From Paraburkholderia ginsengisoli NBRC 100965 (GTDB taxonomy: Bacteria; Pseudomonadota; Gammaproteobacteria; Burkholderiales; Burkholderiaceae): a stretch of 64,000 bases of DNA. The position numbers were made by a program, and so were the translations under genes. The DNA is taken from contig NZ_BBJF01000005.1 in assembly GCF_000739735.1 (NCBI RefSeq), positions 186,001 to 250,000 of the forward strand, read 5' to 3'. The notes under the pieces are model-generated. The model was given only the letters and a program-made list of their open reading frames with translations, was not told the DNA's origin and made no database searches. This document shows, in pieces, positions 6,014 to 12,162 of this stretch (positions within the stretch are counted from its first letter, which is position 1; every line of letters begins with the position of its first letter).

Positions 6014-7000
6014 ATGCGTGCGATGGTGTTCGACGGCAGCGCATCATCGCTGCGAGTGCAGGAACTGCCTGATCCAACGCCCGGCGCCGGACAGATCCTG
6101 ATCGATATTCATGCGTGCGGCGTGTGCCGCACCGACCTTCATCTGATCGACCACGAACTCGAACATCCGAAACAGCCGGTGATCCCGGGCCACGAAATCG
6201 TCGGCACGGTGGTGGAACTCGGCGAAGGCGTGACGGGTTTCGCAATCGGCGATCGCGTGGGGGTGCCGTGGGTCGGTCATACGTGCGGGCATTGCCGCTA
6301 TTGTCTGTCATCGCGCGAAAATCTCTGCGACGAACCGGGCTTCACAGGCTATACGATCGACGGCGGTTACGCCGAGCGCACCGTCGCCGACAGTCGCTAC
6401 TGCTTTCATTTACCGGCGCAGTACTCGGACATCGAGGCCGCGCCGCTGCTATGCGCGGGCCTCATCGGTTACCGCACGCTCAGCATGGCGGGCGACGCGC
6501 AGCGCATCGGCATCTACGGCTTCGGCGCGGCGGCGCATATCGTCGCGCAGATCGCGCGTCATCAGCAGCGCACGGTGTATGCGTTCACGCGGCGTGGCGA
6601 TCACGCGGCCCAGCAACTCGCGCTGCGTCTGGGCGCGGCATGGGCGGGCAGCAGCGACGAGGCGCCGCCCGACGAACTGGATGCGGCTTTGCTTTTCGCG
6701 CCGGTCGGCGCGCTGGTTCCGCAAGCATTGAGAGCGGTGGCGAAAGGGGGCGTGGTGGTCTGCGGCGGGGTTCACATGAGCGACATTCCGTCGTTCCCGT
6801 ACGCGTTTCTGTGGGGCGAGCGGCGCGTGGTGTCGGTTGCGAATCTGACGCGCGACGATGGGCTCGCGTTCATGCGCATCGCAGCCGAAACAAGCCTCGC
6901 GATCGAAACGACGACTTATCCGTTGACGGACGCCAACCGGGCGCTGAGCGATCTGCGCGACGGCAGGTTGACGGGGGCGGCGGTGCTCGCCATCCGTTAG
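6014..7000 (+). CDS. Zinc-dependent alcohol dehydrogenase, AdhA-like
   Basis: 328 residues, medium-chain dehydrogenase family. Catalytic zinc ligands are visible as CGVCRTDLH and GHEIVG, and the structural zinc lobe as CGHCRYC followed by ENLCDE. The coenzyme domain has the IGIYGFGAAAHIVAQ turn, a variant of GxGxxG. It should interconvert an alcohol and an aldehyde with NAD(P). AGGAG sits just before ATG 6014. Position behind an FNR-type box and next to an FNR gene suggests a fermentative or redox-balancing role under oxygen limitation. Close relatives are often annotated as zinc-binding alcohol dehydrogenase family protein; the natural alcohol is unknown. Confidence 0.9.
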   Translation: MRAMVFDGSASSLRVQELPDPTPGAGQILIDIHACGVCRTDLHLIDHELEHPKQPVIPGHEIVGTVVELGEGVTGFAIGDRVGVPWVGHTCGHCRYCLSSRENLCDEPGFTGYTIDGGYAERTVADSRYCFHLPAQYSDIEAAPLLCAGLIGYRTLSMAGDAQRIGIYGFGAAAHIVAQIARHQQRTVYAFTRRGDHAAQQLALRLGAAWAGSSDEAPPDELDAALLFAPVGALVPQALRAVAKGGVVVCGGVHMSDIPSFPYAFLWGERRVVSVANLTRDDGLAFMRIAAETSLAIETTTYPLTDANRALSDLRDGRLTGAAVLAIR

Positions 7001-7077: not shown

Positions 7078-7866
7078 TCAAACCCGCACAAGACTTTCGT
7101 GATCGAGAATCCGGATGTCCTTGCCGTGTGTGTCGACCAGTCCGTCGCGCTGGAATTTGGAGAGCATCCGGCTGACCGTTTCGAGCTTGATGCCCAGATA
7201 GCTGCCGATTTCCTCGCGCGTCATGCGCAGATGAAATTCCGCCGGCGAATAACCGCGCAGCCTCAGACGGTCGGACAGATTCAGCAGGAAGGTCGCTACG
7301 CGCTGTTCGGCCGACATCGTGCCGAGCAGCATCATCTGCGACGACTCGCGCACGATCTCGCTGCCCATCATCCGGTGCAGATGTTGTTGCACGACCTTGA
7401 CCTCGCGGCACATCGTTTCGAGCAGATGGAACGGGATGATGCAGACCTTGCTGTCTTCGAGCGCGACGGCGTCGCAGCTATGGTGGCCGGAGCTCACGCC
7501 GTCCAGACCCAACGAGTCGCCGGTGAGGTGGAAGCCGGTCACCTGTTCGCGGCCGTCGCGGTGCATCACGACAGTCTTGAACGAGCCGACGCGCACGGCG
7601 TAGATGCTCTGGAACGAATCGTTGGCGCGGTAGATCGTTTCGCCCTGCCTGATGGTGCGCGACGGGCAAATCAGCGCTTCCATCCTCTTCAACTCGTCGG
7701 GCGTGAGGCCTTGCGGCATGCAGATCGCGCGCATCGAGCAGGTCGAGCAACGCAGTGTGTCGCTGCGCGGGGCTCGCGCGATTGCCGGCGGTTGCCCCGG
7801 AAAGGGCGGCGCATGTTCAGGGACAAACGCGGGCAAGGTGACCGGATACGCGGCTACGTCAGACAT
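7078..7866 (-). CDS. fnr: FNR-type [4Fe-4S] transcriptional regulator (Crp/Fnr family)
   Basis: 262 residues. Cys40, Cys43 and Cys49 form the N-terminal C-x2-C-x5-C cluster motif of E. coli FNR, and Cys131 stands at the place of the fourth ligand. A cNMP-fold beta barrel (about 75-165) is followed by a long dimer helix and the helix-turn-helix MTREEIGSYLGIKLETVSRMLSKF, where E-TVSR is the FNR recognition helix that reads TTGAT half-sites. It should therefore sense oxygen directly and bind the boxes found at 5522, 12238, 12286, 16002 and 19092. AGGAG is seven bases before the ATG. The stop of the receiver gene upstream overlaps its start by 13 bases, so translation is coupled. Pseudomonas ANR is the functional parallel. 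Confidence 0.92.
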   Translation of the reverse strand: MSDVAAYPVTLPAFVPEHAPPFPGQPPAIARAPRSDTLRCSTCSMRAICMPQGLTPDELKRMEALICPSRTIRQGETIYRANDSFQSIYAVRVGSFKTVVMHRDGREQVTGFHLTGDSLGLDGVSSGHHSCDAVALEDSKVCIIPFHLLETMCREVKVVQQHLHRMMGSEIVRESSQMMLLGTMSAEQRVATFLLNLSDRLRLRGYSPAEFHLRMTREEIGSYLGIKLETVSRMLSKFQRDGLVDTHGKDIRILDHESLVRV

Positions 7867-8291
7867 GATGTGCTCCTGATTGAAGAAGGGGCGCGCGTGC
7901 GATGTTCGCCGGCGATCCGCTGGATCGTGCTGCGCGCGAGATCGAATTCACCGGTCTTGTCCAGAAAGTAGTGGGCACCGTGTTTCAGGCAGGCGCGCCG
8001 AAACCAGGCGCCGCAATGATTCGTCAGCACCATGACAATGACGTGAGGCATTCTTTCAGCCAGCAGCGCCACCAACTCCATGCCGGTGCCGCCGCTCAGA
8101 TGCCATTCCATCACCACCAGATCGGCCGCGCCGCTGTCGATGCCCGCGAATGCGGCAGCGGGCTCTTCGGCTTCGCCGACGATTTCCACGCCGTCGAGCG
8201 CGCTGAACAGCGCAGCCATACGGCGGCGCACCGGCACGGCATCGTCGACCAGGAAAATACGCAGCGCGGGGCGCTCGGGGTTTGAGTTCAT
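7854..8291 (-). CDS. Stand-alone receiver-domain protein with Asp-to-Glu phospho-site
   Basis: About 145 residues; a CheY-like receiver with no output domain. Acidic pocket Asp16-Asp17 (FLVDDA), Thr90 (VLTN) and Lys112 (FLDKTG) are present, but the phospho-acceptor position reads VVMEWHLSGG, with Glu62 (codon GAA) instead of Asp. The tail after 120 is a short unstructured extension. The protein may be locked in an active-like state or act by protein contact only. ATG 8291 is used here; an in-frame TTG lies two codons upstream. It precedes and overlaps the FNR gene by 13 bases, so it is likely a partner in oxygen control. Its role is not known. Confidence 0.82.
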   Translation of the reverse strand: MNSNPERPALRIFLVDDAVPVRRRMAALFSALDGVEIVGEAEEPAAAFAGIDSGAADLVVMEWHLSGGTGMELVALLAERMPHVIVMVLTNHCGAWFRRACLKHGAHYFLDKTGEFDLARSTIQRIAGEHRTRAPSSIRSTSCLT

Positions 8292-8485
8292 GCTCAAAGT
8301 ATCGGCCGCGTTATCTCAAAATAAAATCGGCGGTGAATGTACTTCGAGTAGGCGAGTGAGAAGGGGTGTAGGGCGTTGCCTACAGCAGCGTGAAGCGGCT
8401 CAGTGCAATCCCTGGGGGCCGCGGAGTGCGGGCCGCGCGGGCGGTCGTCAAGCGACGGCGCAGCGAGCCGGCGCGACCCATGCGT

Positions 8486-9136
8486 TCAGATGTCGTCCTC
8501 GTCGTCGGCGATGAGTTTGTGGCGCATCGCATAACGCACCAGCGCAGCGTCGTGCGGCATCTGCATCTTCTCCAGAATACGCGTCTTGTACGTGCTGATG
8601 GTCTTGCTGCTCACGCATAGCTCGGTGGCGATTTCGGTGATCGTCTGCCCGGCGGCAATGCGCTTGAGAACATCGAACTCCCGGTCGGACAGACGCTGAT
8701 GCGGCAGTTGATCGACGGGTTCGTTCAGGCTCTGTGCGAAGCGCTCGGCCATCGCGAGGCTGACATAGACGCCGCCAGCGGCAACCTTGGTCACGGCCGA
8801 CACCAGCTCGGCGCTCGCGCTCTCCTTGGTCAGATAACCGGAAGCGCCCGCCTTGAAGGCGCGCACCGCATATTGCTGCTCGGCATGCATGGTCAGCACG
8901 AGGATGCGCAGCGCCGGCTTTTCTTCCTTGATCTGCCTGATCAACTCGACGCCATTGCGGCCGGGCATCGACAGATCGAGCACCAGCACATCGGCGGCGC
9001 GCTCGCGAATCAGCGCGACGGTGCTGGCGCTGTCGCTCGCTTCGCCGACCACTTCGAAGCCGCTCGCGCCCTTGAGGATGTGGCGCAAGCCGTCGCGCAC
9101 CAGCGCATGATCGTCGGCGATCAGCACGCGCGTCAT
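8486..9136 (-). CDS. NarL/FixJ-type response regulator
   Basis: 216 residues. Receiver domain with Asp8-Asp9, phospho-acceptor Asp54 (LVLDLSMPG), the Thr of VLTMH and the Lys of YLTKE, followed by a LuxR-type helix-turn-helix near 150-205 (LSDREFDVLKRIAAG, then SSKTISTYKTRILEKM). It should be phosphorylated by the adjacent histidine kinase; start and stop overlap by four bases (ATGA), which indicates coupled translation. Target genes are not evident from sequence, but its place between an FNR gene and universal stress genes suggests control of the same low-oxygen programme. Confidence 0.92.
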   Translation of the reverse strand: MTRVLIADDHALVRDGLRHILKGASGFEVVGEASDSASTVALIRERAADVLVLDLSMPGRNGVELIRQIKEEKPALRILVLTMHAEQQYAVRAFKAGASGYLTKESASAELVSAVTKVAAGGVYVSLAMAERFAQSLNEPVDQLPHQRLSDREFDVLKRIAAGQTITEIATELCVSSKTISTYKTRILEKMQMPHDAALVRYAMRHKLIADDEDDI

Positions 9137-10464
9137 GTTTGCACTTCCTGCGATTGCACGGTCTGCGCCGGCATCGTCACGGTCAACGCGAACCCCTTGC
9201 CGTAAGCGGTCTGAATTTCGACCGCGCCGCCCAGCATATGCACGCGTTCGCGAATGCCGAGCAAGCCGAACGATTTGCCACCGGCTTCGCCGGAGCGATG
9301 CGCGCCCTGGCCGTTGTCGGCGATGCGCAGCACGAAGTTCGGGCTTTCGGCGCGCAGGCTGAGCATGACCAGGGTGGCGTCGGCGTGCCGCGCCACGTTG
9401 GTCAGCGCTTCCTGAACGATGCGAAACAGTGCGGTCGCGCCGGCTTGGGTGAAACGCGCGTCGCCCGTCTCGATGTCGCGCTCCACGTCGATCCCATAGC
9501 GGTTCGTGAAGTCGTTCGACAGCCATTCGATCGCGGGGATCAGCCCAAGATCGTCGAGCATGACCGGCCGCAGATCGGCGGCGATGCGCCGCACCGACGC
9601 GACCGTTGCGTCGATCAGCCGCCGCATGCCTTGCAACTGGGCGCGCAGCGGCACATCCGCCGAGTCGATCAGCGCCTGTTCGACCGACGCGATATCCATT
9701 TTCAGCGCCGTGAGCTGCTGACCGAGGTCGTCGTGCAGTTCGCGCGCAATGCGGGACTTCTCGTCCTCGCGAATATTTTGCAGGTTGGCTGAAAGCTCGC
9801 GCAATTCCTCGCGCGCCTGCCGTTGTGCGCGCTCCGCTTTCACGCGGTCGGTGATGTCGCGCAGCATTACGGTGTAAAGGCGCGTGTTGCCGTCGCGGAT
9901 CTGCGAAATGGACGCTTCCAGCGGAAATTCCTCGCCGTTGGCGCGCAAACCGGACAGCACGCGTTGCGTGCCCATCTGCCGGTCCGACACGCCGGTGCCG
10001 CCGAATTGCTGGACGTGTTGCGCGTGCGCCGCGCGGAACCGCTCGGGGATGAAGCGGTCGAGCGGCCCGCCGACCGCCTCCATCGCGGAACAGCCGAACA
10101 CCTGCTCCGCCATCGGATTGAAGATGACGATGCGCTGACGTTCGTCAATGGTGATGATCGCCTCCATCGACGAACGGATGATCGCCATCATGCGCGCTTC
10201 GTTGACGGCTGACTGATTCTCCATGCCGCGCGCCGACCCATTGCGGCGCGCGCGCGTCAGCAGGTAGGCGCTCGCGGCCAGAAAGAGCGCGGCGGCGAGA
10301 CAAAGCAGCCAGGTTGGATCGAACCAGCGTTGCGCCGCGATCATCGCGGCGAGCGCGACGCAAAACGTCGCGGCGGCGGCGAGCCCGGGGCGCGCCGCAT
10401 ACGAGGCCAGCCGCCCACGTTCGTGGGGCGGTGGCGGAGTGGGCGACTTGTCGCGAACAACCAT
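9133..10464 (-). CDS. PAS-domain sensor histidine kinase (HisKA_3 type), FixL-like PAS
   Basis: 443 residues from ATG 10464, which has GAAGAGG upstream; a TTG nine codons earlier has no ribosome site. Two membrane helices lie at about 24-44 and 52-69. A PAS domain (about 95-205) follows, then a HisKA_3 dimerisation helix with the phospho-acceptor His244 (IARELHDDLGQQL) and a HATPase domain (N box QEALTNVARHA, G box ADNGQGA). In the PAS F helix, His147 and Arg168 line up with the haem His and the distal Arg of FixL by eye, so haem-based oxygen sensing is possible but this motif also occurs in haem-free PAS domains. The partner is the NarL-type regulator with which it overlaps by four bases. 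Confidence 0.9.
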   Translation of the reverse strand: MVVRDKSPTPPPPHERGRLASYAARPGLAAAATFCVALAAMIAAQRWFDPTWLLCLAAALFLAASAYLLTRARRNGSARGMENQSAVNEARMMAIIRSSMEAIITIDERQRIVIFNPMAEQVFGCSAMEAVGGPLDRFIPERFRAAHAQHVQQFGGTGVSDRQMGTQRVLSGLRANGEEFPLEASISQIRDGNTRLYTVMLRDITDRVKAERAQRQAREELRELSANLQNIREDEKSRIARELHDDLGQQLTALKMDIASVEQALIDSADVPLRAQLQGMRRLIDATVASVRRIAADLRPVMLDDLGLIPAIEWLSNDFTNRYGIDVERDIETGDARFTQAGATALFRIVQEALTNVARHADATLVMLSLRAESPNFVLRIADNGQGAHRSGEAGGKSFGLLGIRERVHMLGGAVEIQTAYGKGFALTVTMPAQTVQSQEVQT

Positions 10465-10779: not shown

Positions 10780-11289
10780 TTATGACGGGTCCTTGACGAG
10801 TGCATCCGCAGCGTGTGCCGGATTCGCCGACGGTGCCGCGCAATGCGCGGAGACCAGCAGCACCGGGCAGGCGGCGATGTGCAGAAAATGCTCGGCGACG
10901 CTGCCGAGCACCAGACGTCGCACGCCCCGCCGGCCGTGCGTGCCCATTACGACCAGGTCGGCGTCGAGTTCCTGAGCGGCGCGCTGGATGCCGTGTGCGA
11001 CGTCTTCGCCTTCCAGCAGTTCGGTTTCGAGCATGCGGGGCGCTCCCTTGACGCCGGCGACTGCCATCAGCGCGGCTGCGTCGGCGAGTACTTGCCGGCC
11101 TTCATCCGCGAGCGCGTCGCGCACGTATGACGGGTCGTAGCCGGGTACGTCGTAGGACATCAACGGCACGTCCACGACGAAGAGCGGCTGCAATCGCGCA
11201 TCCGAATCGCGCGCCATCTTGATGGCGGCGGCCAGCGCGCGCGCCGAGGTTTCGCTGCCGTCGACGGCCACCAGAATCTGCTTGTACAT
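10780..11289 (-). CDS. Universal stress protein, single UspA domain
   Basis: 169 residues. Starts MYKQILVAVDGSETSARAL and carries the ATP-binding signature G-x2-G-x9-G-S (MGTHGRRGVRRLVLGS) near residue 130, so it should be an ATP-binding Usp. The C-terminal 20 residues are Ala rich. ATG 11289 has AGGAG nine bases upstream; a GTG three codons earlier is less likely. It follows the tandem Usp gene by 36 bp on the same strand and thus lies in the operon driven by the FNR-type box at 12238. Usp genes of this kind are standard members of ANR/FNR regulons and of the B. cenocepacia lxa locus. Confidence 0.9.
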   Translation of the reverse strand: MYKQILVAVDGSETSARALAAAIKMARDSDARLQPLFVVDVPLMSYDVPGYDPSYVRDALADEGRQVLADAAALMAVAGVKGAPRMLETELLEGEDVAHGIQRAAQELDADLVVMGTHGRRGVRRLVLGSVAEHFLHIAACPVLLVSAHCAAPSANPAHAADALVKDPS

Positions 11290-11325
11290 GGCGAGCACTC
11301 CTGAACGGGAAAGGGCGGACTGTGA

Positions 11326-12162
11326 TCAGTGCGACATCAGCACGGGCACGGTCATCGAGTGGAGAATCGTGCGGGTGGCGCCGCCCATCACCAGTTCGCG
11401 CCAGCGGGCGTGGCCGTACGCGCCCATCACCAGCAGATCGGCGCCGCTGTCGGCCACTTGCGTGAGCAGCACTTCGCCGACCGATCCGCCCGGTCCGGTT
11501 TCGATGTCGGCGATTTCCACTTGCACGCCATGCCGCGCGATCACCGTGGCGATATCCGCGCCCGGAATGCGGGCGCGCTCGCCCTGTTGCTCGCCGTTAA
11601 CGGTGAGGATCGTGGTGCTCGTCGCATTCCGCATGAACGGTAGCGCATCGTGTACCGCGCGCGTGGCTTCGCGGCTGCCGTCCCACGCGACCAGCACGCG
11701 CTCGCCGGTCGACCGCGCGTTACTCGCATGGGGCACCAGCAGCACCGGTCGACCGCTCGACAGAACGAGGCTCTCGGGGAAGAAGTCGCCGACATACGAT
11801 TCGGGATCCTCGGGGTTGTCCTGGCCGGCCACGATCAGATCGGCGCAGCGGCCCGCGCGTGGTAGCGCGAGGCTGGCTGGCTCGTCGCTGACGACCCATT
11901 CGCCCGCCACGTCGGCGCGCCGCAGTTCGGCGTGAAAGAGCCGTTCGAGCGCCGCGCGCCGCTCCGCGCGAATCTCTTCGTGCGTGCCGTAGTACGCCGC
12001 CGTGCCCGCCATCACGTAGAGCGAGCGCGGGACCGGGGAGAACACGGCGAAAGCGCCGGTCAGATGCGCGCCGAACTGTTTGGCGAGGCGCAGCGCTATT
12101 TCGAGCCGCGGATGCGCACGCTCGCTGGTGTCGAGATGAACGACGATGGTCTTGTAGCTCAT
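11326..12162 (-). CDS. Universal stress protein with two Usp domains
   Basis: 278 residues. The N-terminal half (MSYKTIVVHLDTSERAHPRL) is a degenerate Usp fold; the C-terminal half starts at ERVLVAWDGSREATRA and has the ATP motif MGAYGHARWRELVMGGAT. Length and tandem layout match the UspE-like class. It is the first gene of a two-gene operon with the single-domain Usp. Upstream is an FNR-type box centred 28.5 bases from a TAGACT -10 element (12216-12211), so transcription under low oxygen is likely. Divergent from the flavodoxin-like gene. Confidence 0.9.
   Translation of the reverse strand: MSYKTIVVHLDTSERAHPRLEIALRLAKQFGAHLTGAFAVFSPVPRSLYVMAGTAAYYGTHEEIRAERRAALERLFHAELRRADVAGEWVVSDEPASLALPRAGRCADLIVAGQDNPEDPESYVGDFFPESLVLSSGRPVLLVPHASNARSTGERVLVAWDGSREATRAVHDALPFMRNATSTTILTVNGEQQGERARIPGADIATVIARHGVQVEIADIETGPGGSVGEVLLTQVADSGADLLVMGAYGHARWRELVMGGATRTILHSMTVPVLMSH

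Follow-up and report, generated by a model that had tools for sequence, protein, structure and literature searches.

What does a stand-alone receiver domain do once its phospho-acceptor Asp has been replaced by Glu, and on which of its neighbours, an FNR-type regulator or a two-component system, does it act? Receivers of this pseudo kind make up about 4-6% of receivers, and their origin and mode of action in bacteria have not been settled (PMC12632262). Where a receiver has lost its Asp, Glu takes the place more often than any other residue, with 26% (PMC4395418). The locus that raises the question lies in a 64-kb stretch of DNA from Paraburkholderia ginsengisoli NBRC 100965, and this whole stretch is called the window below. 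The following features of the window are relevant.

6014..7000, forward strand: zinc alcohol dehydrogenase gene, convergent with the FNR gene (compare BCAM0286); translation and conserved synteny.
7078..7866, reverse strand: FNR-type regulator, 262 aa, with an N-terminal CxxC-x5-C and a central Cys as in Fe-S FNR; PF13545 and PF00027.
7854..7866, reverse strand: overlap of the receiver and FNR genes, 13 nt (8 nt in relatives); sequence and comparison.
7854..8291, reverse strand: stand-alone receiver with Glu at the phospho-site (pseudo-receiver); ORF, translation, PF00072 and fold model.
7873..7876, reverse strand: GGAG, the FNR ribosome-binding motif within the 3' end of the receiver gene; sequence, conserved in the clade.
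8106..8108, reverse strand: codon 62, GAA (Glu), at the position of the phospho-acceptor Asp; sequence and alignment of 76 distinct sequences.
8298..8303, reverse strand: hexamer GATACT, conserved 6-7 nt upstream of the receiver start codon, a possible -10 element; alignment of upstream regions.
8367..8384, no strand assigned: 18-bp palindrome TGTAGG-N6-CCTACA, putative box of the adjacent NarL/UvrY-type regulator; sequence search and conserved position.
8486..9136, reverse strand: NarL/UvrY-type response regulator with intact phospho-Asp; PF00072 and PF00196.
9133..10464, reverse strand: PAS-HisKA_3 sensor histidine kinase with intact His; PF07730, PF13426 and PF02518.
10780..12162, reverse strand: two universal stress protein genes; translation and conserved synteny.

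The receiver ORF starts with the ATG at 8291 and encodes 145 aa. A preliminary description of this DNA had the coordinates, strand and frame right, and its claim of a stand-alone receiver that keeps the acidic pair, Thr and Lys and has Glu62 (GAA) at the phospho-site was borne out. Response_reg (PF00072) is the sole Pfam domain matched (E 1.9e-15; 57.4 bits versus a curated cut-off of 30.2), and the protein is one domain without an output domain. The AlphaFold2 model has the (beta-alpha)5 fold with a mean pLDDT of 85.8, and its top fold matches are PDB receivers. Glu62 stands directly after beta3 (residues 58-61) in this model, that is, at the phospho-acceptor position. In the alignment, counted from the ATG at 8291, the acidic pair is D16/D17, followed by T90, the aromatic F109 and K112. 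The protein belongs to the Response_reg family by match and fold but has Glu62 in place of the phospho-acceptor Asp, and a non-Asp residue at this position is what marks an aspartate-less receiver (ALR or pseudo-receiver). Judged by its sequence, the gene product is a single-domain, conserved aspartate-less (pseudo-)receiver.

Seventy-six distinct Burkholderiaceae homologues, obtained by whole-genome searches and from named GTDB genomes, were aligned. Residue 62 is Glu in 17 of them and Asp in 59. The preliminary description had made its reading depend on whether Glu is fixed in orthologues or Asp is found there, and the outcome is divided: Glu is fixed in one clade, and the majority have Asp. 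All Glu carriers fall within a single Paraburkholderia clade, which includes P. graminis, P. kirstenboschensis, P. caledonica, P. terricola, P. xenovorans LB400, P. phenazinium, P. phenoliruptrix, the window and nine further genomes. Asp is found at the same locus in P. tuberum, P. podalyriae, P. lacunae, P. elongata, P. madseniana, P. bryophila and others. It is likewise the residue of every Burkholderia receiver examined and of the homologues read from more distant genera, among which a recurrent D-to-E change was not seen. Since most orthologues have Asp, the alignment indicates that Glu62 is derived and clade-fixed, not universal. A base-calling error or annotation artefact at the GAA codon has a practically negligible probability. 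Nothing is in favour of it, and it is ruled out by the occurrence of Glu in 17 distinct sequences from different genomes, in which both GAA and GAG are used.

In a maximum-likelihood tree of the receivers built without column 62, one D-to-E change is enough on the best tree. P. phenazinium groups with the remaining 16 Glu sequences at modest support (82/66), whereas these 16 alone are supported at 99/98. Two D-to-E changes are possible given this placement of P. phenazinium, and on the tree Asp was most likely lost once, at the base of the P. graminis / xenovorans / phenazinium group. In the alignment, four members of the Glu clade also differ from the rest at the second acidic residue (Asn in P. 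xenovorans and L068, Glu in L009 and L010), a drift that is expected if Mg-dependent phosphotransfer no longer matters. In most of the Burkholderia receivers (L015, L016, L021-L032, L035 and L036) the acidic pair is D-H, not D-D or E-D, and the phospho-Asp is kept. By sequence, this is an independent loosening of the pocket within the same family.

How is the receiver gene connected with FNR? The 13-nt overlap that the preliminary description reported is real in the window, but it is not a conserved device. Its cause is a frame change by 1 nt, private to this genome, within the C-terminal tail of the receiver, which is not conserved. The Glu clade and the Asp sister clade usually have an overlap of 8 nt (ATGTCTGA), and in Burkholderia and other homologues the two genes are mostly separated by a gap of 3-17 nt. 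The FNR protein of the window reaches 227 bits against the NCBIfam Fnr subfamily, whose cut-off is 228. As a separate observation, the FNR gene of the locus in P. xenovorans LB400 (L137 3590-4870; also L042 and L098) is interrupted by a roughly 1.3-kb insertion, which carries an ORF resembling an IS3-type transposase.

Natural lesions were found in four genomes (G338, G400, G365 and G344), in which the receiver is internally deleted or fused to FNR. In G338 (L133), the FNR of which is the nearest to that of the window (87%), the receiver is cut to its first codons and a scrap of the tail. Roughly codons 28-96 are missing in G400 (L134), and G365:C2 (L136) has an internal deletion. These three keep the box, the start codon and FNR, and the receiver remnant is in frame with FNR. 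In G344 (L064 / L090), the tail of the receiver has a 1-nt shift, by which the two genes become a single reading frame of 403 aa. In all four genomes, translation from the receiver ATG would meet no stop before FNR and would enter it in the frame of FNR itself, whereas receiver and FNR are in different frames or split by a stop in intact loci. For all four lesions this is expected by chance at about 1 in 81, in a tiny sample. Every lesion that keeps the receiver start, and also the tail shift of the window, still brings ribosomes to the FNR start, and the lesions therefore support translational coupling. The idea of the preliminary description that the receiver is made in step with FNR is well supported as far as shared expression is concerned. 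At the same time, the receiver is dispensable, because it is deleted in the close relative G338, in which the kinase, the regulator and FNR remain.

These lesions bring up the reading that the receiver is losing its function, the change to Glu being one step of this decay, and that the gene survives mainly as a translated leader feeding ribosomes to FNR. The deletions in the three genomes, which leave the box, the start codon and the in-frame run into FNR, are in line with it, and so are the tail frameshift in the window and the frame fusion in G344. Substitution patterns make it very unlikely, however. We used the median of pairwise Nei-Gojobori dN/dS values, in which pairs are not independent and the receiver is covered over 128 codons. 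The receiver has 0.18 in the Glu clade versus 0.21 in the Asp sister clade, thus near 0.2 with no rise after the change; FNR has 0.15 versus 0.18, and the NarL-type regulator 0.06 versus 0.055. Nothing in these values suggests that the loss of Asp relaxed the receiver gene, and 54 positions are invariant in the receivers of the Glu clade. Codon 62 itself is held as Glu: of the changes inferred there within the Glu clade, four are G-to-A and none leads to C or T, either of which would restore Asp in one step. At the fourfold sites of the receiver gene, changes from purines go 12 times to purines and 30 times to pyrimidines, so that four out of four at codon 62 would occur by chance with a probability of about (12/42)^4 = 0.7%, by parsimony on one tree and with a small count. 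By these measures the receiver with Glu62 is kept under purifying selection and is not a pseudogene, though it is deleted in G338. Taken over the whole clade, degeneration after the loss of Asp is rejected on the strength of dN/dS and of the changes at codon 62, though it is real in single lineages.

The avoided reversion of codon 62 to Asp is also consistent with a Glu62 that imitates phospho-Asp, in which case the receiver would constitutively do, with any partner, what the phosphorylated Asp form does in the sister species. The residues that would hold the acid, T90 (Ser in P. phenazinium) and K112, are still present, and in several response regulators a Glu brings about partial activation (reviews: PMC12632262, PMC4395418). 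On the other hand, Glu alone often fails to activate, as in CheY, PhoB and Spo0A, and the activity of ChxR is independent of its Glu (PMC4395418). We regard a locked-on receiver as unlikely. Swaps of residue 62 in both directions would separate a phosphomimic from a merely lost switch.

The gene neighbourhood bears on the partner of the receiver. The order kinase, NarL/UvrY-type regulator, receiver and FNR, with the dehydrogenase and universal stress protein genes alongside, is found in nearly all loci of the Glu and sister clades. The receiver-FNR pair is tight through Paraburkholderia and Burkholderia, and FNR is a neighbour also in more distant genera. In the two Burkholderia loci for which the regulator was located, several kilobases lie between this pair and the kinase/regulator. 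In one other genus, eight loci (L147-L154) have the kinase, the regulator and the receiver together without FNR. We also observed that at L002 815-1893 (G000:C48) a stand-alone receiver with the same VLTNH ... F-DK signature and a normal Asp comes immediately after a further NarL-type regulator.

The preliminary description spoke of a constitutively active-like partner of FNR or of the adjacent kinase pair. In the case of FNR, the Glu receiver would bind FNR itself and tune its activity, an always-on-like co-regulator produced together with its target. The tight pairing agrees with this proposal, as do the 8-nt overlap kept in both the Glu and the Asp sister clades, the shared box, the 403-aa fusion of G344 and the remnants fused in frame to FNR in G338, G400 and G365. 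However, eight loci of one genus have the receiver and no FNR, close relatives have kept FNR after the receiver was deleted, and the fusions hold only receiver scraps in three of the four cases, which speaks for translation and not for a protein complex. Together with the frequent failure of Glu alone to activate, these findings leave the constitutively active-like FNR partner unsupported, and we assign direct action on FNR a low probability.

How is the pair turned on? The palindrome TGTAGG-N6-CCTACA stands between the regulator gene and the receiver gene. It has one match in the 64-kb window versus 0.02 expected (at one mismatch), and two sites in the whole 6.5-Mb genome. The only other perfect site of this genome, G000:C48:653302-653319 (L139), has no clear gene association among the surrounding ORFs. 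The palindrome lies 75-77 nt before the receiver ATG in nearly all 76 homologues and is exact in 66 of the 76. The genus without FNR likewise has it before the receiver gene, and loci with a deleted receiver have it before FNR; the remote relatives L002, L158 and L159 are without it. Besides its Glu receiver locus, the P. phenazinium genome has a second FNR gene (L135, G339:C43), which is preceded by this palindrome but not by a receiver start. The best NCBIfam match of the adjacent regulator is the UvrY/SirA/GacA family (184 bits), and the UvrY box is TGTAAG-N6-CTTACA (PMC4682653), likewise an 18-bp palindrome with a 6-nt spacer. The two differ in that the arms are TGTAGG/CCTACA here and in that the regulator scores under the model's cut-off of 280. 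The adjacent NarL/UvrY-type regulator probably binds this putative site and controls receiver and FNR. A sigma-70 consensus promoter was not found before the receiver gene, and because of this it is only a guess that GATACT points to a leaderless receiver mRNA.

The direct basis for a model consists of the substitution, its clade, the selection on the gene, the gene arrangement and the conserved box. Our preferred model, which as a whole we rate at somewhat less than an even chance, is that the two-component system turns on receiver and FNR and that the receiver works without phosphorylation, most likely on the kinase. The ancestor would have been a normal Asp-bearing stand-alone receiver in an lxa-type low-oxygen cluster (kinase, NarL-type regulator, receiver and FNR). 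When Asp changed to Glu in the ancestor of the P. graminis / xenovorans / phenazinium group, the normal phospho-Asp switch would have gone while the protein was kept by selection. In the present locus, the kinase would activate the adjacent NarL/UvrY-type regulator, and the activated regulator would bind TGTAGG-N6-CCTACA and turn on a receiver-fnr operon. The amount of the receiver, not its phosphorylation, would be the signal. The receiver would bind its partner, most likely the kinase of the same cluster, in one fixed conformation, and this binding may exert negative feedback as Osp does on CckA. We favour the kinase as the partner since, in loci that lack FNR, the receiver is still found next to kinase and regulator. 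There is also a precedent in Osp of Rhodobacter sphaeroides, a single-domain receiver-like protein that is induced by the regulator of its own system and that, in unphosphorylated form, is an inhibitor of the kinase CckA (PMC9430884). Some findings stand against the preferred model. The receiver was lost in G338 while kinase, regulator and FNR remain, most members, unlike Osp, keep the acidic pair and Lys, so that by sequence Glu could still accept phosphate, and the modest support for the position of P. phenazinium leaves room for a second D-to-E change. It is a rather doubtful possibility that the Glu-fixed pseudo-receiver modulates FNR, or the kinase turning FNR on, purely by dosage, the former phospho-switch now being a constitutive protein partner. 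If this is true, a dosage-acting pseudo-receiver would be a layer in oxygen control.

One apparent Asp-to-Glu change parts two sister species groups that share gene cluster and promoter box. The Asp-bearing sister species, the in-frame FNR fusions and the natural deletions are ready-made comparisons, and the conserved box makes it possible to test how the neighbouring two-component system is tied to FNR in the low-oxygen locus of Burkholderiaceae.

A literature text search, with most subscription journals outside its coverage, found no earlier description of this receiver. The receiver is a further example of the known pseudo-receiver class, and what is new is the clean Asp/Glu sister pair in one conserved locus. 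The suggestion of a new type of control in the preliminary description did not hold, Glu being already the commonest replacement (PMC4395418). With the aspartate-less receivers that have Glu, such as ChxR, plant PRRs and Rim15p (PMC4395418, PMC12632262), the present receiver has in common the receiver fold, the change of phospho-Asp to Glu and the loss from an Asp-bearing lineage. It differs from them in being a single domain without an output domain, in overlapping the adjoining FNR gene and in having an Asp-bearing sister clade at the same locus. Osp resembles it in the single receiver-like domain, the defective phospho-site and the regulator-box-like sequence in the promoter (PMC9430884). 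However, Osp keeps Asp and is without the acidic pair and Lys, whereas the present receivers have lost Asp and for the most part retain the pair and Lys (D16/D17 and K112); the likeness is at the level of the fold, and kinase inhibition is only proposed here. The closest likeness in gene content is the lxa locus of B. cenocepacia, which has the dehydrogenase BCAM0286, the FNR BCAM0287, the regulator BCAM0288 and the stress proteins BCAM0290-0294 (PMC4981469), and in which BCAM0287 is induced 17-fold at low oxygen (PMC4505428). The same gene kinds stand here in the same order of dehydrogenase, FNR, regulator/kinase and stress proteins, as judged by synteny. In contrast, the receiver is absent from the published table of the lxa locus (PMC4981469), and Burkholderia receivers mostly have D-H in the acidic pair and have kept the Asp that the Paraburkholderia clade has replaced by Glu.
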